From: Candidatus Gastranaerophilales bacterium
Lineage (GTDB): Bacteria; Cyanobacteriota; Vampirovibrionia; Gastranaerophilales; Gastranaerophilaceae
DNA length: 64,000 nucleotides
Assembly (NCBI GenBank): GCA_944324165.1
Contig: CALUVG010000005.1
Coordinates: 1-64,000, forward strand
Direction of reading: 5' to 3'
Part shown: piece by piece, positions 29,073 through 58,370 of the stretch
Numbering within the stretch: the stretch's first letter is position 1
How the letters are laid out: every line of letters starts with the position of its first letter
The notes under the pieces: model-generated
What the model saw: the letters and a program-made list of their open reading frames with translations, nothing else
What the model was told of the DNA's origin: nothing
Databases searched by the model: none
Made by a program: the position numbers and the translations under genes

Positions 29073-30701
29073 ATGTCAGATTTTGCAATTCATGGCAACA
29101 ATGCCTTGCAAACACATGGAAATGAAACACTTTACAAAAAAGTTGAAATCAACGGTCAAATTCATTTCGTTGAAGTTCCTATTGGAAAGTCTGCAACGAA
29201 AACGCCAGCTTCAAAACCGGACAGTGCTCTAGAAAAAGAAGTAAAACCGTTTGAAGACACAACACAAAAAGAAATTTTACAGGCAAGAAAGTTCCTTGAT
29301 CACGAAGACAAAAAAGTCAGAAAAGGAGCAGAACTTACGCTTACAGAATTGTACAAACAAGCCTTTATAGAAGAAGGCAAAAGTGAAAAAGAAGCAAAGA
29401 AACTTGCAAAACTTGCGCTGAAAGAAGATCAGGCAGCATTAAGATTTGAAAAACGTCAGGTATTCATAGACAAAGATGAATACAAAGCTGCAAAAAAAGC
29501 GGACAAAGATAATAAAGATAATTATGAATATCTTGGCAGAAAAACTCGTAAATTCGTAGAAGCACATAAAGATGAATTCTATGAAAACGGTGATTTTTCT
29601 AACAAAAAATTCAAAGATTTTATGAAAGGCATAGCCGCTGAAGACCATCAGGCTGATCTTGCAGAGCTTGATGAAGCCGCAGAAGAATATAATTCAACCA
29701 GAAGAGTAATGGGAAAAGCCGCAAAATCTGCAGGATTGGACAAAGAAAAAGATAAAACGGCGGGTAAACGTGCATTACATGTTCTCAAAACAACTGCCAT
29801 AGGAGCAGGATTGGGGGCAGCCGCCGGCGCAGCAATAGGTTATGCAACAGGTTCTGTAACAGAATTAAAAGATGTAAACCATAAACACATTAACATTAAT
29901 GATCCAAACTTTGATGTAGATGTAGATACAAATTGTGACCTTGAAGGAACAATTGATACAAGAAAATCTTCAGCCAAAACAGGAGCCATAGCAGGGGCAG
30001 TCGGAGGCGGTCTCGCAGGTATGGTGACAGGTCTAACAACAATGAAAAAAATTAAGGATGAAGGTGAAGGAATATATACAAAACGTGAAGAAGCAACCGA
30101 AATAATAAAAGGTAAATTTGAGGAGCCAACACCACCAGCTCCGCCAACACCACCAACACCACCAACACCGCCAACACCGCCAACACCGCCTACTCCTCCA
30201 ACTCCACCTGTTGAAAAGGTACAATGCCGGGAAGAAATTGATGAAGTTCCTATAATGGAAGAAAAACCGGATCTGGATTACTGTGAATACAAAGTAAAAC
30301 GCGGTGAATCCTGGTATGATATCACAAGAGATAAATACGGTATTAAAGACCATAAAGACATTATGGACGCAGTACACGTACTAAAAGATCAACACGGTGT
30401 TAAATATAGTGAAAATGTTCAGCCAAAAGTAATGAAATTATACTACGATTTAGAAGTCGGTGACAAAGTATATCAACTTGACTGTGACAAAGATGTAAAA
30501 GGTACCGTTAGAAAATATGGAAACCAAAAACAATATAATGGAAAATTCCAGCCAAGAACAGTTGAACAGCAAACAGGTACAGAATATATCTACAACAGAT
30601 ATGAAACAAGAAATGGTGAGGAAGAACAACTGGTTGACAGCCAGAAATTCACAAATCAAAAAGATCTGGAAGAATACATCCTTGAAAACGGATGTAACTA
30701 A
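29073..30701 (+). CDS. LysM-like protein with Gly-zipper segments and a PTPP-repeat linker
   Basis: 542 residues: a charged, largely helical N-terminal half rich in Lys/Glu; two glycine-alanine-rich hydrophobic stretches (about 245-270, GAGLGAAAGAAIGYATG, and 305-325, GAIAGAVGGGLAGMVTG) like glycine-zipper membrane segments; a proline linker of eight TPP units (352-379); then a LysM-like domain (YCEYKVKRGESWYDITRDKYG, given in part, ~397-455). It may bridge membrane and peptidoglycan. There is no signal peptide, which is odd for a LysM protein and suggests another export route. GAAAGGGG precedes the ATG and a clean terminator follows. Confidence 0.75.
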   Translation: MSDFAIHGNNALQTHGNETLYKKVEINGQIHFVEVPIGKSATKTPASKPDSALEKEVKPFEDTTQKEILQARKFLDHEDKKVRKGAELTLTELYKQAFIEEGKSEKEAKKLAKLALKEDQAALRFEKRQVFIDKDEYKAAKKADKDNKDNYEYLGRKTRKFVEAHKDEFYENGDFSNKKFKDFMKGIAAEDHQADLAELDEAAEEYNSTRRVMGKAAKSAGLDKEKDKTAGKRALHVLKTTAIGAGLGAAAGAAIGYATGSVTELKDVNHKHININDPNFDVDVDTNCDLEGTIDTRKSSAKTGAIAGAVGGGLAGMVTGLTTMKKIKDEGEGIYTKREEATEIIKGKFEEPTPPAPPTPPTPPTPPTPPTPPTPPTPPVEKVQCREEIDEVPIMEEKPDLDYCEYKVKRGESWYDITRDKYGIKDHKDIMDAVHVLKDQHGVKYSENVQPKVMKLYYDLEVGDKVYQLDCDKDVKGTVRKYGNQKQYNGKFQPRTVEQQTGTEYIYNRYETRNGEEEQLVDSQKFTNQKDLEEYILENGCN

Positions 30702-48784: not shown

Positions 48785-50302
48785 TTATAAATCAACTTCG
48801 GATTCTTTTATAGGGGCACCTATAACACGTTCAAGCTCTGCAGCATTGACGTTATAATCCAAAAGGTTTGAATAGTAACTCAATTGTGCATTAAGATAGG
48901 TATTCTCAGCATCTTTAAATTCAATAGCATTACCTAACCCGACCTGATATCTCCTATAAGCTTGATACTGCTGTTCTTTTGCCTGTTGCAGTGCAAGTTT
49001 TGCAACCTCAAGACTGTCATGCGAATTTAAAAGGCTTATATATGCGCTTTTTACTTCCAGATAAACATTCTGGCGTTCGGCTTCGTAATCCGCAACACAT
49101 TTTTTGTAAGTAGAATTTGCCTCATCAACCAGTTTTTTCAACAGCATTAAATTTAAACCCGTATAATTCAACTGGACTCCAAACTGATAACCATAATCAG
49201 TATTTACACGCGGACCGCCATGATTGTAAGATCCAAAAGCACTCAAATCAGGCGTAAATGCTCGTTTCGCACTTCTTATTCCAAGTTCTGCAGCGTCCAT
49301 TCTTTTCTTTGCGGCAAGAAGTGACGGACGTGACGCTTCCGCAACCTTTATCAACTCTTTAAAATCCACATCATATGCTTTTGTATTTAATTTATCTTTT
49401 AAAATTACATTCTCTAACTCCGGAATACCAACTGCATTTGCAAGTTCCACCGCAGCAAGTTCAAGAGTGTTTTTAGCTTTAATCAAATTAACCCTTGCGT
49501 TACCAAGGTTGTATTCCGCGGTCGTAACATCAATCTTTGCCTTTTTACCAATATGATAATATGCGCTCGCCTGTTTCAGTTGCAATTCATAATCCTTAAC
49601 AGTATCTTCATATACAAGTTTTTGAATGTCTGCAAAAACAAGATTATAATACGCAACTTTTACATTATAAATTACAAGCTCAATACTCGTTTCCGCATCA
49701 AATCTTGAAGATTCATAAGTCTTTTTTGCAGCATCAGCATTAGCCTTTGTTTTGCCGAAATCAAATAGTAACATATTTGCAGAAAGTGTCGGGGTATAAT
49801 ACAAATCATACCGTCTATTCATCATATGTGAAAACTGTCCGCCTGTCATAGTCATCAAGGAATCATTTCTTGAATAACTTATACCCGCCCCAAGTGTCGG
49901 AAAATAATTTGACCATGCCTGACCAACTCTTGATTTATAAATCTCTGCATTATTAATCGCTGACATTATCGCCGGATTATGTGTAATAGCGAGTTTAATA
50001 CAATCTGTGAGTGTAACTTCGCCATTCATTTCAGAATATTCGATTTTACTATTGATAACAGGGAATTTCGTTTCGTACATGCCTTCGGCTTCTTTTGAAG
50101 ATTCTTCTTTTGATTTTGCATTTTCTGCATGTTTTTTTCTTTCCTTTTTCAAATTTATTTTTTTAGTTTTTTCCGGTTTAACAATCTGGATTTTTTCAGG
50201 CTTTTTAGCAATATCGTTTTCCGGCACATCCTTAGCCCAAGCAATATTAAATGCGCCTATTGCAATTGAAGATATTAAAAGTAAACTAAAAATCCTTTTC
50301 AT
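48785..50302 (-). CDS. Outer membrane efflux protein of the RND operon (TolC family)
   Basis: 505 residues with signal peptide (MKRIFSLLLISSIAIGAFNIAWA is its extent, cut after AWA) and a Lys/Glu-rich N-terminal insert (about 25-75) before the first conserved helix LTDCIKLAITHNPAIMSA. Two structural repeats follow with the typical AxxxLxxA helices and FDFGKTKANADAA. It is the third gene of the efflux operon, starting 3 bp after the pump's stop with a GGAG site inside the pump's end. It should form the outer-membrane duct for the RND complex. Confidence 0.92.
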   Translation of the reverse strand: MKRIFSLLLISSIAIGAFNIAWAKDVPENDIAKKPEKIQIVKPEKTKKINLKKERKKHAENAKSKEESSKEAEGMYETKFPVINSKIEYSEMNGEVTLTDCIKLAITHNPAIMSAINNAEIYKSRVGQAWSNYFPTLGAGISYSRNDSLMTMTGGQFSHMMNRRYDLYYTPTLSANMLLFDFGKTKANADAAKKTYESSRFDAETSIELVIYNVKVAYYNLVFADIQKLVYEDTVKDYELQLKQASAYYHIGKKAKIDVTTAEYNLGNARVNLIKAKNTLELAAVELANAVGIPELENVILKDKLNTKAYDVDFKELIKVAEASRPSLLAAKKRMDAAELGIRSAKRAFTPDLSAFGSYNHGGPRVNTDYGYQFGVQLNYTGLNLMLLKKLVDEANSTYKKCVADYEAERQNVYLEVKSAYISLLNSHDSLEVAKLALQQAKEQQYQAYRRYQVGLGNAIEFKDAENTYLNAQLSYYSNLLDYNVNAAELERVIGAPIKESEVDL

Positions 50303-50305
50303 ATG

Positions 50306-53300
50306 CTAATACTCCAAATCTTCTTCTGTAATTTGTTTTGTCGGGAATTTATCTACAAATTCCTGAACAATAACGTAAAATGCCGGTGTCAACACAGCAC
50401 CGATAGTAGCTGCAGCAACCATACCGCCAAAAACAGTAGATCCTACCGATAATCTTGAATTTGCGCCAGCTCCTGATGCAAACAACATTGGTAATACCCC
50501 AAGAATAAATGCTATTTCTGTCATCATAATCGCACGGAAACGAAGTTTTGCAGCTTTTACTGCCGCATCTTTTACCGAAAGACCGTGTTTTTCATGTTCT
50601 TCTTTTGCAAATTCTACAATCAAAATAGATTGTTTAGCTGCAAGTCCAATTAATGTTATCATACCGACTTGCGAATAAATATCAAATGACTGATTAATCA
50701 TCATCTGGAATATCAAAGCCCCGAGAGCCGCAACCGGTGAGATTAATAATACAGCAATTGGTATGGTATAGCTTTCATACAAAGCAACAAGAAATAAATA
50801 GACAAATATTAATGCCATTGCAACAATTATAATGGTTTGCCCTGATGCCTCACGTTCCTGAGCAGATGTTCCTGACCAGTCAAAGGTAATATCAGAAGGT
50901 AGTACTCTTCTTGCAACGTTTTCCATTGCCTTCATCGCATCACCGGAACTTTTTCCCGCTGCCTGCTGACCTTGTATTTGTACTGATTGATAAAGGTTAT
51001 ATCTTGATATTGATGCAGTACCTATTGTCTGTTTCAATTTAACCATTGACAAAATAGGAACCATTACCCCGTTTGTGTTTTTCACATATATACCCGACAG
51101 GTCGCTTGCAGTATTTCTGAATTGACTTTCTGCCTGCATTTCAACCTTAAATACCCTGTCATATTTATTAAAATCATTCACGTAATATGTACCGAGCATT
51201 GATGCAAGTGTGGAATAAAGTTCTTGCAAGTCAACACTTTGCGCCATTGCCTTTTCATAATCAATTTCTAAAGTATACTGCGGCACATTTGCCTGAAATG
51301 TTGTATAAACACTTGATAATGAAGGATCTTGATTGGCTGCCTCAATAAGTTTATTTGCCCAGCTTTCAAGTTCCTGCGGCGTGTATTCACCTCTTGCCAG
51401 CATCTGGAATTCAAATCCGCCCATCATACTCATACCGCTGATTGCCGGCGGTGAGAATGTAACTATTGATGCTTCTTTTGTGCTTGATGCGATTGCCCTT
51501 ATTCTATTCAATATTGCTGTATGTGACAAATCTGTCGGACGCCCTTTAAATTTTCTCTCAATCCAATCAATAGGAGATACTTTTCTGTCTGCATAATCAT
51601 CCAGCATTATAATTGCTGTGGCACTGTTTGCGGCCCCATTACCGCCAAAAACAATCAGTCGGTCTTCATCAACGCCTTCAATATCTCTTATTTGTGACAC
51701 AAATCTTGATGCAACATCTTCTGTTCTTGAAAGCGATGCACCATCGGGTAATGTTATACTGGCAAGCAAAACCCCTTGATCTTCATCCGGAATAAATCCG
51801 GTTGAAATTATTCTAAATGACAAAAGAGTCAGAACAACTATTGATAAATAAAATATTATTGTAAGCTTTTTATCATGTACAAATTTCTCTACAAATTCAA
51901 TATAAAAATCCTCTGTTTTTGCAAAAAACGCATTAAAATCTTTAACGACGACATCTGTTCTTTCTGCAATATTATTACATATGTGTTTAAGATGAAGTAA
52001 AAATGGTGATTTAATTTCTTTAACTTTCTTGTCATCGTTCTTTTCTCCAAGAAAATGAGAACACATAGCAGGGGAAAGCGTTAAAGCACAAATTGCAGAA
52101 ACTGCAATAGAAACAGCTATACACACCGCAAACTGTTTATACATAACTCCGGTCATGCCGCCCATAAATATAATAGGAACAAATACTGCCATCAACACCA
52201 TTGCCATTGCAACCAGCGAAGACCCAACCTCTTCCATTGTTAATTGCGTTGCGATTACCGCAGATTTTCCTTCTTCTAAGTGTCTTTTAACGTTTTCGAT
52301 AACAACAATTGCGTCATCAACAACAACACCTACTGCAAGTACAAGCGCAAATAATGACAGAAGATTTATACTCATATTAAACGCTTTTAGTGCAATAAAC
52401 GTACCGATTAGAGAAACCGGTATGGTAACGCAAGGCACAAGCGTTGCCATTGCATCGCCCAAAAACAGGAATATTATTATAACAACGATTAGACCTGTCA
52501 AAAGAATAGTAAATTCAACTTCTTTCATTGATTCATGGATATAATCCGAATCATCTTTGATAAATTGAACCTTCAATCCATTATCAAATTGCGAATTCAA
52601 ATCCTCTACTTTTTTTCTAATAGCTTTAGACAAATTCAAAATATTTGCATCGGAAAGCTGTGATACCATTATCAAAGCTGCAGGCTTATTGTTAATTCTA
52701 CCTAATTGTGTGTAAGTTGCAGCACCGAGTTCTACGCGTGCGACATCTTTCAATCGCACCTTACTGCCATCCATATTTGAACGCAAAATTATATCTTCAA
52801 ACTCTTTTACATCGGAAAGACGACCTTTTGTTTTAAGGGTAAGCTGTAAAGCCTGTTCATCATCTGTCGGCAATGCTCCAAGTGAACCTGCCGTAACCTG
52901 TGTATTTTGAGCGACAATGGCATTTTTAACCTCTGTAGTTGATATATTTAAACCTGCCATTTTTTCAGGATCAAGCCATATTCTCATTGAATAATCGCCT
53001 GAACCGTAAACATCTATATCTGCAACACCTTCTACACGTTTCAATTCGTCTTTAATATATATAGATCCGTAATTTGTTAAATCTAATTGCGACCAGTTTC
53101 CTTCCTCAGATGCTATATTAAGAATTATGGCACCGGAACCGGATGTTCGGCTCAATGCTGTAACACCTGTTCTTTGAACTTCTTCAGGCAGCTGTGACAA
53201 TACTTGTTGAATTCTGTTTTGCACATTCATCAGGTTTACGTTTTTATCTGTTCCAACCTTAAAATACATTGTCAAAGAATATGAACCATCATATGAAGTT

Positions 53301-53563
53301 GATGTCATATAAGAAAGATTTTCAACACCGTTCAATTTGTTTTCCAAAACTGTAGCAATAGAAGACTCAATAACTTCGGCATTTGCTCCGGTATATGAGG
53401 CTGAAACTCTAACCTGTGGCGGCGTTACATCCGGATAGTTCTCCTGTTTTAAAGACGCCATTGAAATTAAGCCCATAATCACTATACATATAGAAATTAC
53501 CAGAGCAAATCTAGGCTTTCTTATAAAAAAGTACAACTTTTCTTTATCAAAAATCTTTTTCAT
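50306..53563 (-). CDS. RND efflux pump, AcrB/HAE1 type inner membrane transporter
   Basis: 1085 residues with 12 transmembrane helices and two large periplasmic loops. Family marks: [20 protein letters not shown]-like first helix, [19 protein letters not shown] (quoted in part), the proton-relay pair in [17 protein letters not shown] (two Asp in TM4), and the second-half [16 protein letters not shown] Lys/Asp-rich insert of about 40 residues follows TM6. It should expel drugs, bile acids or other amphiphiles using the proton gradient. Its ATG overlaps the stop of the adaptor gene (TAATG), showing translational coupling. Confidence 0.96.
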
Positions 53564-54729
53564 TATTTACCTGCGTTTAAGTGTTTGATGTATTCTTCAT
53601 TATCTATAATTTTTAATTTTTGCCCTTCCGCATTAATATTCTGAATGCCTGAAACAACGACAACATCATCCTTGCTGAGTCCTTTTTCTACAACCCAGTT
53701 GTTATTAATACTATCTGAAACTTCTATATCTTTTCTTACAGCCTTATCTTCCACAACAGTCCAAACATAATAGCCGCTCATCGGATCACCTTTTGTACAA
53801 GCTTGAGGAACTGTCATAAAATCAACCATTTTAGGGGCAATAAGTTTAACCTTCATGTAATCACCAGGTACAAGCCATCCACGGTCATTATCAAAAACAG
53901 CTCTTAAATTGATTGATCCGGAATCCTTATCTATTTTATTGTCTACAAAATCAACCTTCCCAACCTTATCATACCATTGACCGTCTTCTATTTCTAATTG
54001 AACCTGAACATCTTTTAAGCGATCACTGGCTCTTAACAATTTAACAAAATCATCCCCTTTTAAACTAAATGAAACATAAACAGGATTGGTACTGGAAATA
54101 TTTACCAGAGATCCTGATGTTGCTGTTACATAATTTCCTTCGGTTATATTAACCTTGCCAATACGACCGTCAATCGGAGATTTTATAGAGGTATAACTCA
54201 AATTAACCTTTGCCAGTTCCAGTTGCTGAACTGCTGCATCAAGAAGTGCTCTATTCTGATTTCTGGTGGCAAAACTCTGGTCAACATCTGATCTGCTTAT
54301 CAGATCTTCCTTAACAAGTGCGTTTGCACGATCTAATTCTTGCTGCGCATTTTTTAATAATGCACGATACTGGTTAACAGATGCTGCTGCGTTATTAACC
54401 TCTATCTGGTATTCACGCGGATCAATTTGAAAAATAAGCTGACCTTTTTTAACAAAATCGCCTTCTTTAAAATACTTCTTTATCAAAAATCCGGGAACAC
54501 GTGCTATTACATCAACTGAATACTTTGCCTCCACACGTCCTGTTGCCTCGGCAGAGATAAATACGCTCTCATTCTTTGGATGATCAACAACAACCTCTTT
54601 TGGCATCATCATCGCACGTTTTTGTATTAATCCGGCTATCCAGCCTGTTGTTTTATTGTAAATTATTGGCACTATTATAATCAATAAAATAATTATCAAT
54701 GCCTTTTTTCTCGTTATATTTACCTTCAT
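53563..54729 (-). CDS. RND periplasmic adaptor (membrane fusion protein)
   Basis: 388 residues, the first gene of the operon. An N-terminal membrane anchor ([17 protein letters not shown]) is followed by lipoyl halves ([31 protein letters not shown] in part; [22 protein letters not shown] in part) flanking an alpha-hairpin (85-165), then beta-barrel and membrane-proximal domains. It is anchored by a helix, not a lipobox. It links pump and outer-membrane duct. A consensus promoter (54769-54797) and an upstream dyad (54804-54835) precede it. Confidence 0.95.
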
Positions 54730-56834: not shown

Positions 56835-57111
56835 TGTAGAAAACTTCATACCTTTCTGTAGAAAACTCATGAATTTTCTACATTTTGTTTTTTGTTTTAT
56901 TGTTTAATTTGTTTTCTACATTTTATTGTTACTTTTTTCTACAAAATATTCTACGACCTAAAGTCAATAATAACAATACTTTCACAAGCTTTTCTACAAA
57001 TAAATTGATCTTATTATTACTACTATTTATTATAAATTATTTATTTTAATAATTAATATATAATAATTAGCCGATTGTAGAAAAACTAAAATGCCAGAAA
57101 GAAGTGGATAA
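56835..57111. other. Candidate replication origin (oriC)
   Basis: Seven exact copies of TTTTCTACA or its complement: reverse at 56835-56843, 56857-56865 and 57076-57084; forward at 56874-56882, 56912-56920, 56935-56943 and 56990-56998. The box differs by one base from TTTTCCACA, the cyanobacterial DnaA box. A further near-consensus box (complement of TTATCCACT) lies at 57103-57111. About 70 bp of almost pure AT (57001-57070) could be the unwinding element. dnaN follows directly, as at cyanobacterial origins. The origin assignment is inference; the box cluster is seen directly. Confidence 0.7.
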
Positions 57112-57248: not shown

Positions 57249-58370
57249 ATGAAATTTTTGGTTAAAAAAGAAGATTTATATAACGGAATAAAAATTGTAG
57301 AACGTGCAACCAGCATGAAAGCTTTGCAACCGGTACTTTTGAATATCTTAATAGAAACAATTGATAACAGTAAAATAAAATTGGTTGCTACAGATTTGGA
57401 TTTAACAGTTATAGCTTATGTTGATGCCCAGGTAGAAGAATCTGGTAAAATAACATTGCCTTCTAAAACGCTCAATGAGATAGTTTCAAAGCTAGGAGAT
57501 AAACTGATTACTTTTGAAATGAATAATGATGAATCAAATGTTAATATTACCTGCCAGAATTCAAAATTTGATATCATAGGTATATCAGCAAATGAATTTC
57601 CTCCGGAATTTTCAAATATAGAAATAAATGAAGAAAATGGCTTTGAAATAGCTATTAAACCTTTTGTGAAAGCTGTGCGTCAAGCAGGTTTCGCCGCTGC
57701 AAGCTATGAAACAAGCAACCTTTTATCCGGAATTGTTTGTGATATTAATGGCGATACTCTTGAAATTGCATCAACCGATGGTAACAGATTGGCTAGAGTA
57801 AGAGAAAAAATAGAAAACAAAGATAACAGAAATTGCCAGTTGATAATTCCTTCAAAAACTCTCAACGAATTTATAAAAATGAGTGCATTTTTAGAAGAAG
57901 AAACCGTTAAATTATATACAGAAAAAACAAAACTTATTATAAAGTCAGAAACAACAATTACCGTTTCAAGACTTTTGGAAGGTCAATTTCCTAAATATAA
58001 TCAGTTAATACCTGCTGAAAGTCCGAAAACGGCAATTATTAATGTAACTCAAATGATTTCAGCCCTAGATCGTGTATCTATCATGGTTAATGATAAAACA
58101 AGTATCGTTAAATTAGAGTTTAGTGAAAATAGCCTTAAACTTACTGCTGATACTCCTGATTCCGGTAAATCAGAAGAAAATTTGGATATAGATTATAAAG
58201 CAGAAGAGTTGACAATTGCTTTTAACTATAAGTATGTTCTTGAAGCATTAAAAAATATTGATGCAGATGAAGTTAAATTCGGGTTAAATACAAATCTTTC
58301 TGCAACCGTTTTGAAACCGAACAGTGAAGAAGATTTTGTTTGTTTAATTATGCCGGTACAAATTCGATAA
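57249..58370 (+). CDS. dnaN: DNA polymerase III beta sliding clamp
   Basis: 373 residues in three similar clamp domains, with MKFLVKKEDLYNGIKIVERATS at the start (quoted in part), LPSKTLNEIVSKL and the matching IPSKTLNEFIK in domain two, SNLLSGIVCDI and a C-terminal FVCLIMPVQIR like the usual LIMPMR end. It tethers polymerases to DNA as a dimeric ring. AAAGGAG-type site before the ATG. It heads a cluster with 12-bp or smaller gaps to the redox, FluC and EndoIV genes. Confidence 0.97.
   Translation: MKFLVKKEDLYNGIKIVERATSMKALQPVLLNILIETIDNSKIKLVATDLDLTVIAYVDAQVEESGKITLPSKTLNEIVSKLGDKLITFEMNNDESNVNITCQNSKFDIIGISANEFPPEFSNIEINEENGFEIAIKPFVKAVRQAGFAAASYETSNLLSGIVCDINGDTLEIASTDGNRLARVREKIENKDNRNCQLIIPSKTLNEFIKMSAFLEEETVKLYTEKTKLIIKSETTITVSRLLEGQFPKYNQLIPAESPKTAIINVTQMISALDRVSIMVNDKTSIVKLEFSENSLKLTADTPDSGKSEENLDIDYKAEELTIAFNYKYVLEALKNIDADEVKFGLNTNLSATVLKPNSEEDFVCLIMPVQIR

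Follow-up and report, generated by a model that had tools for sequence, protein, structure and literature searches.

Results

The origin region upstream of dnaN

At 56835-57084 the window, a stretch of 64,000 nucleotides from a genome of the Gastranaerophilales, carries seven exact copies of the 9-mer TTTTCTACA; three of them read on the minus strand, the other four on the plus strand. They are followed by an AT-rich block and the gene for the beta clamp, dnaN (Table 1). A recount confirmed that, as an earlier note on this DNA had described, seven identical 9-mers stand in both orientations beside an AT block and dnaN. The span of 56835-57111 that it gave is right at its start and slightly generous at its end, as the last box stops at 57084. 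The sole full-length DnaA gene found in this genome is located on contig G000:C41, while dnaN is on contig C5; adjoining dnaN, with dnaA elsewhere, is the arrangement of a cyanobacterial-type oriC. Three consecutive genes on the minus strand (48785-54729) were judged by eye to be RND efflux-like, encoding an outer membrane factor, an inner membrane pump and an adaptor, and this trio ends shortly before the predicted origin.

Table 1. Features of the predicted origin region, in window coordinates
Feature	Position	Strand	Basis
DnaA box TTTTCTACA (1)	56835..56843	-	exact match; arrangement <13<8> shared by many genera
DnaA box TTTTCTACA (2)	56857..56865	-	exact match; conserved arrangement
DnaA box TTTTCTACA (3)	56874..56882	+	exact match; conserved arrangement
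DnaA box TTTTCTACA (4)	56912..56920	+	exact match; conserved arrangement
DnaA box TTTTCTACA (5)	56935..56943	+	exact match; conserved arrangement
DnaA box TTTTCTACA (6), predicted loading box of the unwinding module	56990..56998	+	dnaN-proximal forward box; spacer and trios in relatives
12-nt spacer AATAAATTGATC	56999..57010	+	12 nt in 33/43 trio-bearing loci
DnaA-trios, upper strand TTATTATTACTACTA, bound strand 3'-AATAATAATGATGAT-5'	57011..57025	-	definition PMC8287927
AT-rich duplex-unwinding element (predicted)	57011..57069	.	best 50-bp stretch 96% AT
DnaA box TTTTCTACA (7), distal accessory	57076..57084	-	only in the window's genus and G103
dnaN, DNA polymerase III beta clamp	57249..58370	+	TIGR00663, 293 bits, E 1.4e-87

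In the whole window TTTTCTACA occurs nine times, seven copies clustered and two scattered, against an expectation of 1.5 +/- 1.1, and none of 100 shuffles reached nine. Across the 55 contigs of the genome (2.05 Mb) there are 103 copies, and the reversed control word likewise has 103. TTTTCTACA is therefore not enriched in the genome at large and clusters only at 56835-57084. This count, which had been proposed as a check, revealed no second cluster. The density elsewhere in the genome predicts 0.012 copies per 250 bp, which puts the probability of at least seven at about 6e-18. No comparable cluster of another 9-mer was found in the window, and 15 Markov simulations of the window never gave 9-mer clusters of more than three copies. 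The runner-up, GCCAACACC at 30125 with four copies in 260 bp, is unrelated and the only other clustered 9-mer of the window. The cyanobacterial box TTTTCCACA is absent from the 1200 bp preceding dnaN, where the box is TTTTCTACA instead.

An unwinding module has been defined as a DnaA-box, a spacer (peak 10-13 bp, maximum 16) and three or more 3'-NAN-5' trios (PMC8287927). The box at 56990-56998 and the trios at 57011-57025 agree with this definition, three or more trios lying no further than 16 bp from the box, and the AT-rich unwinding element of a DnaA-dependent oriC is found at 57011-57069. The box at 57076 was also considered as the start of a second module of opposite direction; this was dropped, as the box is present only in the window's genus and in G103.

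GC skew was calculated over the whole 93-kb contig for the window's genome and over sampled stretches for relatives. It had been suggested as a test of the origin and speaks for it: the cumulative skew of the contig has its minimum at 57,000, the mean being -0.096 over 40-56.9 kb and +0.059 over 56.9-74 kb. In G085, a member of the same family with a 740-kb contig, the skew of the sampled stretches is negative until dnaN and mostly positive past it, two of the ten stretches beyond dnaN being negative. G040, a member of the same class whose 2.2-Mb genome is a single contig, has dnaN at 1.738 Mb and dnaA at 1.025 Mb; its skew flips at the former and not at the latter.

Conservation of the layout in relatives

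The relatives compared are draft genomes, whose kinship groups are numbered (f2, f3 and so on). Most of the genera sampled from the window's family have clusters of TTTTCTACA upstream of dnaN, and such clusters also occur in the families f2-f4, f6 and f7 of the order; f8 and f10 have mostly one to three copies there. In f8, the origin regions mostly have 43-52% GC and dnaA is directly upstream of dnaN. The pattern < 13 < 8 > ... > 46 > of box orientation and spacing recurs across genera. Moreover, the motif YTAYTAYTA, which on the lower strand reads as DnaA-trios, follows the dnaN-proximal forward box by 8-17 nt in 43 of 70 loci, and by exactly 12 nt in 33 of these 43. The same motif was seen after only 3 of 263 other boxes and at 1.1% of random positions.

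Not all relatives have boxes directly upstream of dnaN. Paired boxes lie 0.4-5.5 kb off in G006, G118, G012, G131 and G016, with about 5 kb in the first three, and about 17 kb from dnaN in G124. No paired boxes were found around dnaN in G029, G034, G021, G007, G008 and a few others; G029 and G034 are well assembled, and their lack of a TTTTCTACA pair counts against the explanation that we favour. In f9, f11, f12, f14 and f15 the box was not confidently readable from the dnaN flanks. The DnaA of G051 from f9 (L233) scores 284 bits, below the family cut-off, and has Thr433; the origin word of this genome may be TTATCAACC.

The earlier note had proposed a lineage with a shifted DnaA box. This is supported by the relatives, and the shift spans several families of the class: Gastranaerophilales-like and Obscuribacter-like families share the box TTWTCTACA, and a second shifted word, TTTTGAACA, is found at dnaN in the four genera G010, G017, G022 and G023 of the window's family (loci L081, L078, L068 and L065). 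The latter is a second box switch within this family, and the same word occurs in Clostridia with Lys433 (see below). The box of G040 is TTATCAACA. Where the sampled cyanobacteria show a cluster at dnaN, its word is TTTTCCACA, in agreement with PMC4674748, and several photosynthetic cyanobacteria have TTTTCCACA, sometimes together with GTTTCCACA, then CTACTACTACT, in the layout of the window. In the open-licence PMC literature TTTTCTACA appears only in unrelated papers; an earlier database listing, for example in DoriC, is possible. Judged by title and abstract, the open-licence PMC papers that combine Melainabacteria, DnaA and replication origin do not seem to deal with such origins.

DnaA residue 433 and the box word

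Asp433 of DnaA (E. coli numbering) has been described as highly conserved in all bacterial classes (PMC8235120). Alignment of domain IV demonstrated that the window's DnaA keeps R399, H434 and T435 of the canonical set and has Lys in place of D433; the residues of this domain had been named as a point to inspect, and position 433 indeed departs from cyanobacteria. Among the 67 Vampirovibrionia DnaAs with a scored locus, 49 have Lys, 7 Thr, 5 Arg, 3 Gly, 2 Gln and 1 Asn at this position, and none has Asp, which is the residue in the sampled Cyanobacteriia and other outgroup families of the phylum. TTWTCCACA was found in 11 of 15 genomes of Cyanobacteriia and other D433 outgroups and in none of 67 Vampirovibrionia. 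Over all loci, it accompanies D433 in 45 of 55 and H433 in 4 of 4 cases, and any other residue in 0 of 99.

A search for DnaA proteins containing GGRKHTT[VI] covered the genomes of 84,980 species. Matches came from Vampirovibrionia, one Chloroflexi, and Clostridia labelled Saccharofermentans, Ruminococcaceae and similar. Downstream of dnaA, the K433 Clostridia mostly carry TTTTGAACA and TTATGAACA, and in a control sample of the clostridial class D433 prevails among the DnaAs and TTWTCCACA among the origins. Around dnaA of Clostridia, TTWTCCACA is present with D433 in 34/40, H433 in 4/4, K433 in 0/27 and N433 in 0/4 (D433 versus K433, Fisher P 2.7e-13, a value that ignores relatedness, the real number of events being small). 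At least two TTWTGAACA are found in 19 of 27 K433 as against 1 of 40 D433 Clostridia. When the K433 loci of Clostridia were filtered for trios following TTTTGAACA, none came up. In a tree of DnaA domain III, in which the DNA-binding domain was left out, the clostridial K433 proteins are nested among other Clostridia in a supported clade (99/98) and are separate from Vampirovibrionia; hence, the association of residue and box arose at least twice.

Three further observations concern single proteins or small groups. The Asn433 Clostridia (L387, L389, L393 and L399) lack TTWTCCACA near dnaA, unlike their D433 and H433 relatives. L411 (G205) is a lone clostridial K433 DnaA outside the Saccharofermentans-like clade and a possible third origin of the change. 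The Chloroflexi genome (J064) has a K433 DnaA (L346, GGRKHTTVMHS); its box was not found.

Discussion

Judged from its sequence, the region at 56835-57084 is almost certainly where this gut relative of the cyanobacteria begins to replicate its chromosome. We read it as a DnaA-dependent oriC with an unwinding module of BUS type. With a probability of roughly 0.9, it is the oriC of a Gastranaerophilales-like member of the Vampirovibrionia, where a K433 DnaA would bind the TTTTCTACA boxes and melt the AT block, and where box position 6 (C to T) and residue 433 would have changed together. DnaA may pass from the box at 56990 over the 12-nt spacer to the DnaA-trios of the lower strand. Melting of 57011-57069 would then lead to helicase loading, and the origin would fire with bidirectional replication.

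The site could also be a true origin while box and residue 433 drifted independently of each other in AT-rich genomes. AT-richness is indeed common among these genomes, and the change within the phylum is close to a single event, but we consider this explanation rather unlikely. The Obscuribacter-like origin regions, at 43-52% GC, also have TTWTCTACA; in Clostridia, by a test that does not correct for kinship, TTWTCCACA is kept with D433 (34/40) and absent with K433 (0/27), and the clostridial K433 clade is independent. These data point to a linked change of amino acid and base that was convergent in two phyla.

Residue 433 and base pair 6 of the box probably form a recognition pair (Asp or His with C6; Lys and others with T6 or A6), which would have been recoded independently in Vampirovibrionia and in the clostridial group and would give initiators that do not cross-recognise ordinary origins. 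Residue 433 may thereby be the cause of the box change. As a possible chemical basis, Asp could act as hydrogen-bond acceptor for the amino group of C or A, and Lys as donor to T (at O4) or to a purine (at N7). However, positions 5-6 of the box can be either CT or GA where residue 433 is Lys, which means that further residues must help to select the word. Moreover, the contact of D433 has been assigned to the 7th and not the 6th base pair (PMC8235120), a contact geometry that the recognition pair leaves unexplained.

That the boxes are an operator array which only regulates dnaN transcription, through DnaA or another factor, with the origin elsewhere, would fit their position directly upstream of dnaN and the location of dnaA on a separate contig. 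We regard this as very improbable, since the contig's cumulative skew minimum lies at the site and two relatives flip at dnaN, since trios and AT block stand at a fixed distance, and since the paired boxes about 5 kb from dnaN in G006, G118 and G012 fit an origin and not a promoter operator. A plasmid-type iteron origin or an integrated mobile element, which repeated 9-mers next to an AT block may resemble, can practically be dismissed in view of the association with dnaN over many families, the two orientations of the boxes, the match to the cyanobacterial layout and the neighbouring ORFs, among which no plasmid-type initiator gene was seen by eye.

In bacteria, few protein-DNA pairs are as conserved as DnaA and its box. 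Here both appear to have changed across a class of gut and environmental bacteria, and convergently in Clostridia, which would provide a natural experiment on the joint change of an essential initiator and its numerous sites. The data suggest that origin finders tuned to TTATCCACA or TTTTCCACA would probably perform poorly on these origins. TTWTCTACA or TTTTGAACA may serve as a motif for finding origins in metagenome-derived genomes.

Origins linked to dnaN with TTTTCCACA boxes have been described for the cyanobacteria Synechococcus elongatus, Anabaena and Cyanothece 51142 (PMC4674748). Like these, the region in the window adjoins dnaN and has multiple 9-mer boxes and an AT stretch, and in sampled cyanobacterial genomes trios likewise follow the last box. 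Unlike in cyanobacteria, position 6 of the box is T and not C, the second tandem box is weak, and residue 433 of DnaA is Lys and not Asp. With the BUS of B. subtilis and others (PMC8287927) the region shares a box, a 12-nt spacer, five trios with a middle A on the bound strand and an AT-rich region, whereas its box sequence is non-canonical. The DnaA boxes of Epsilonproteobacteria have a fixed T5, and the D433-H434 dyad is kept there (PMC5043019). In both groups the box changed across a whole class and helix 5 of DnaA domain IV differs; whereas Epsilonproteobacteria fixed position 5 and kept D433, the class of the window changed position 6, or positions 5-6, and lost D433.
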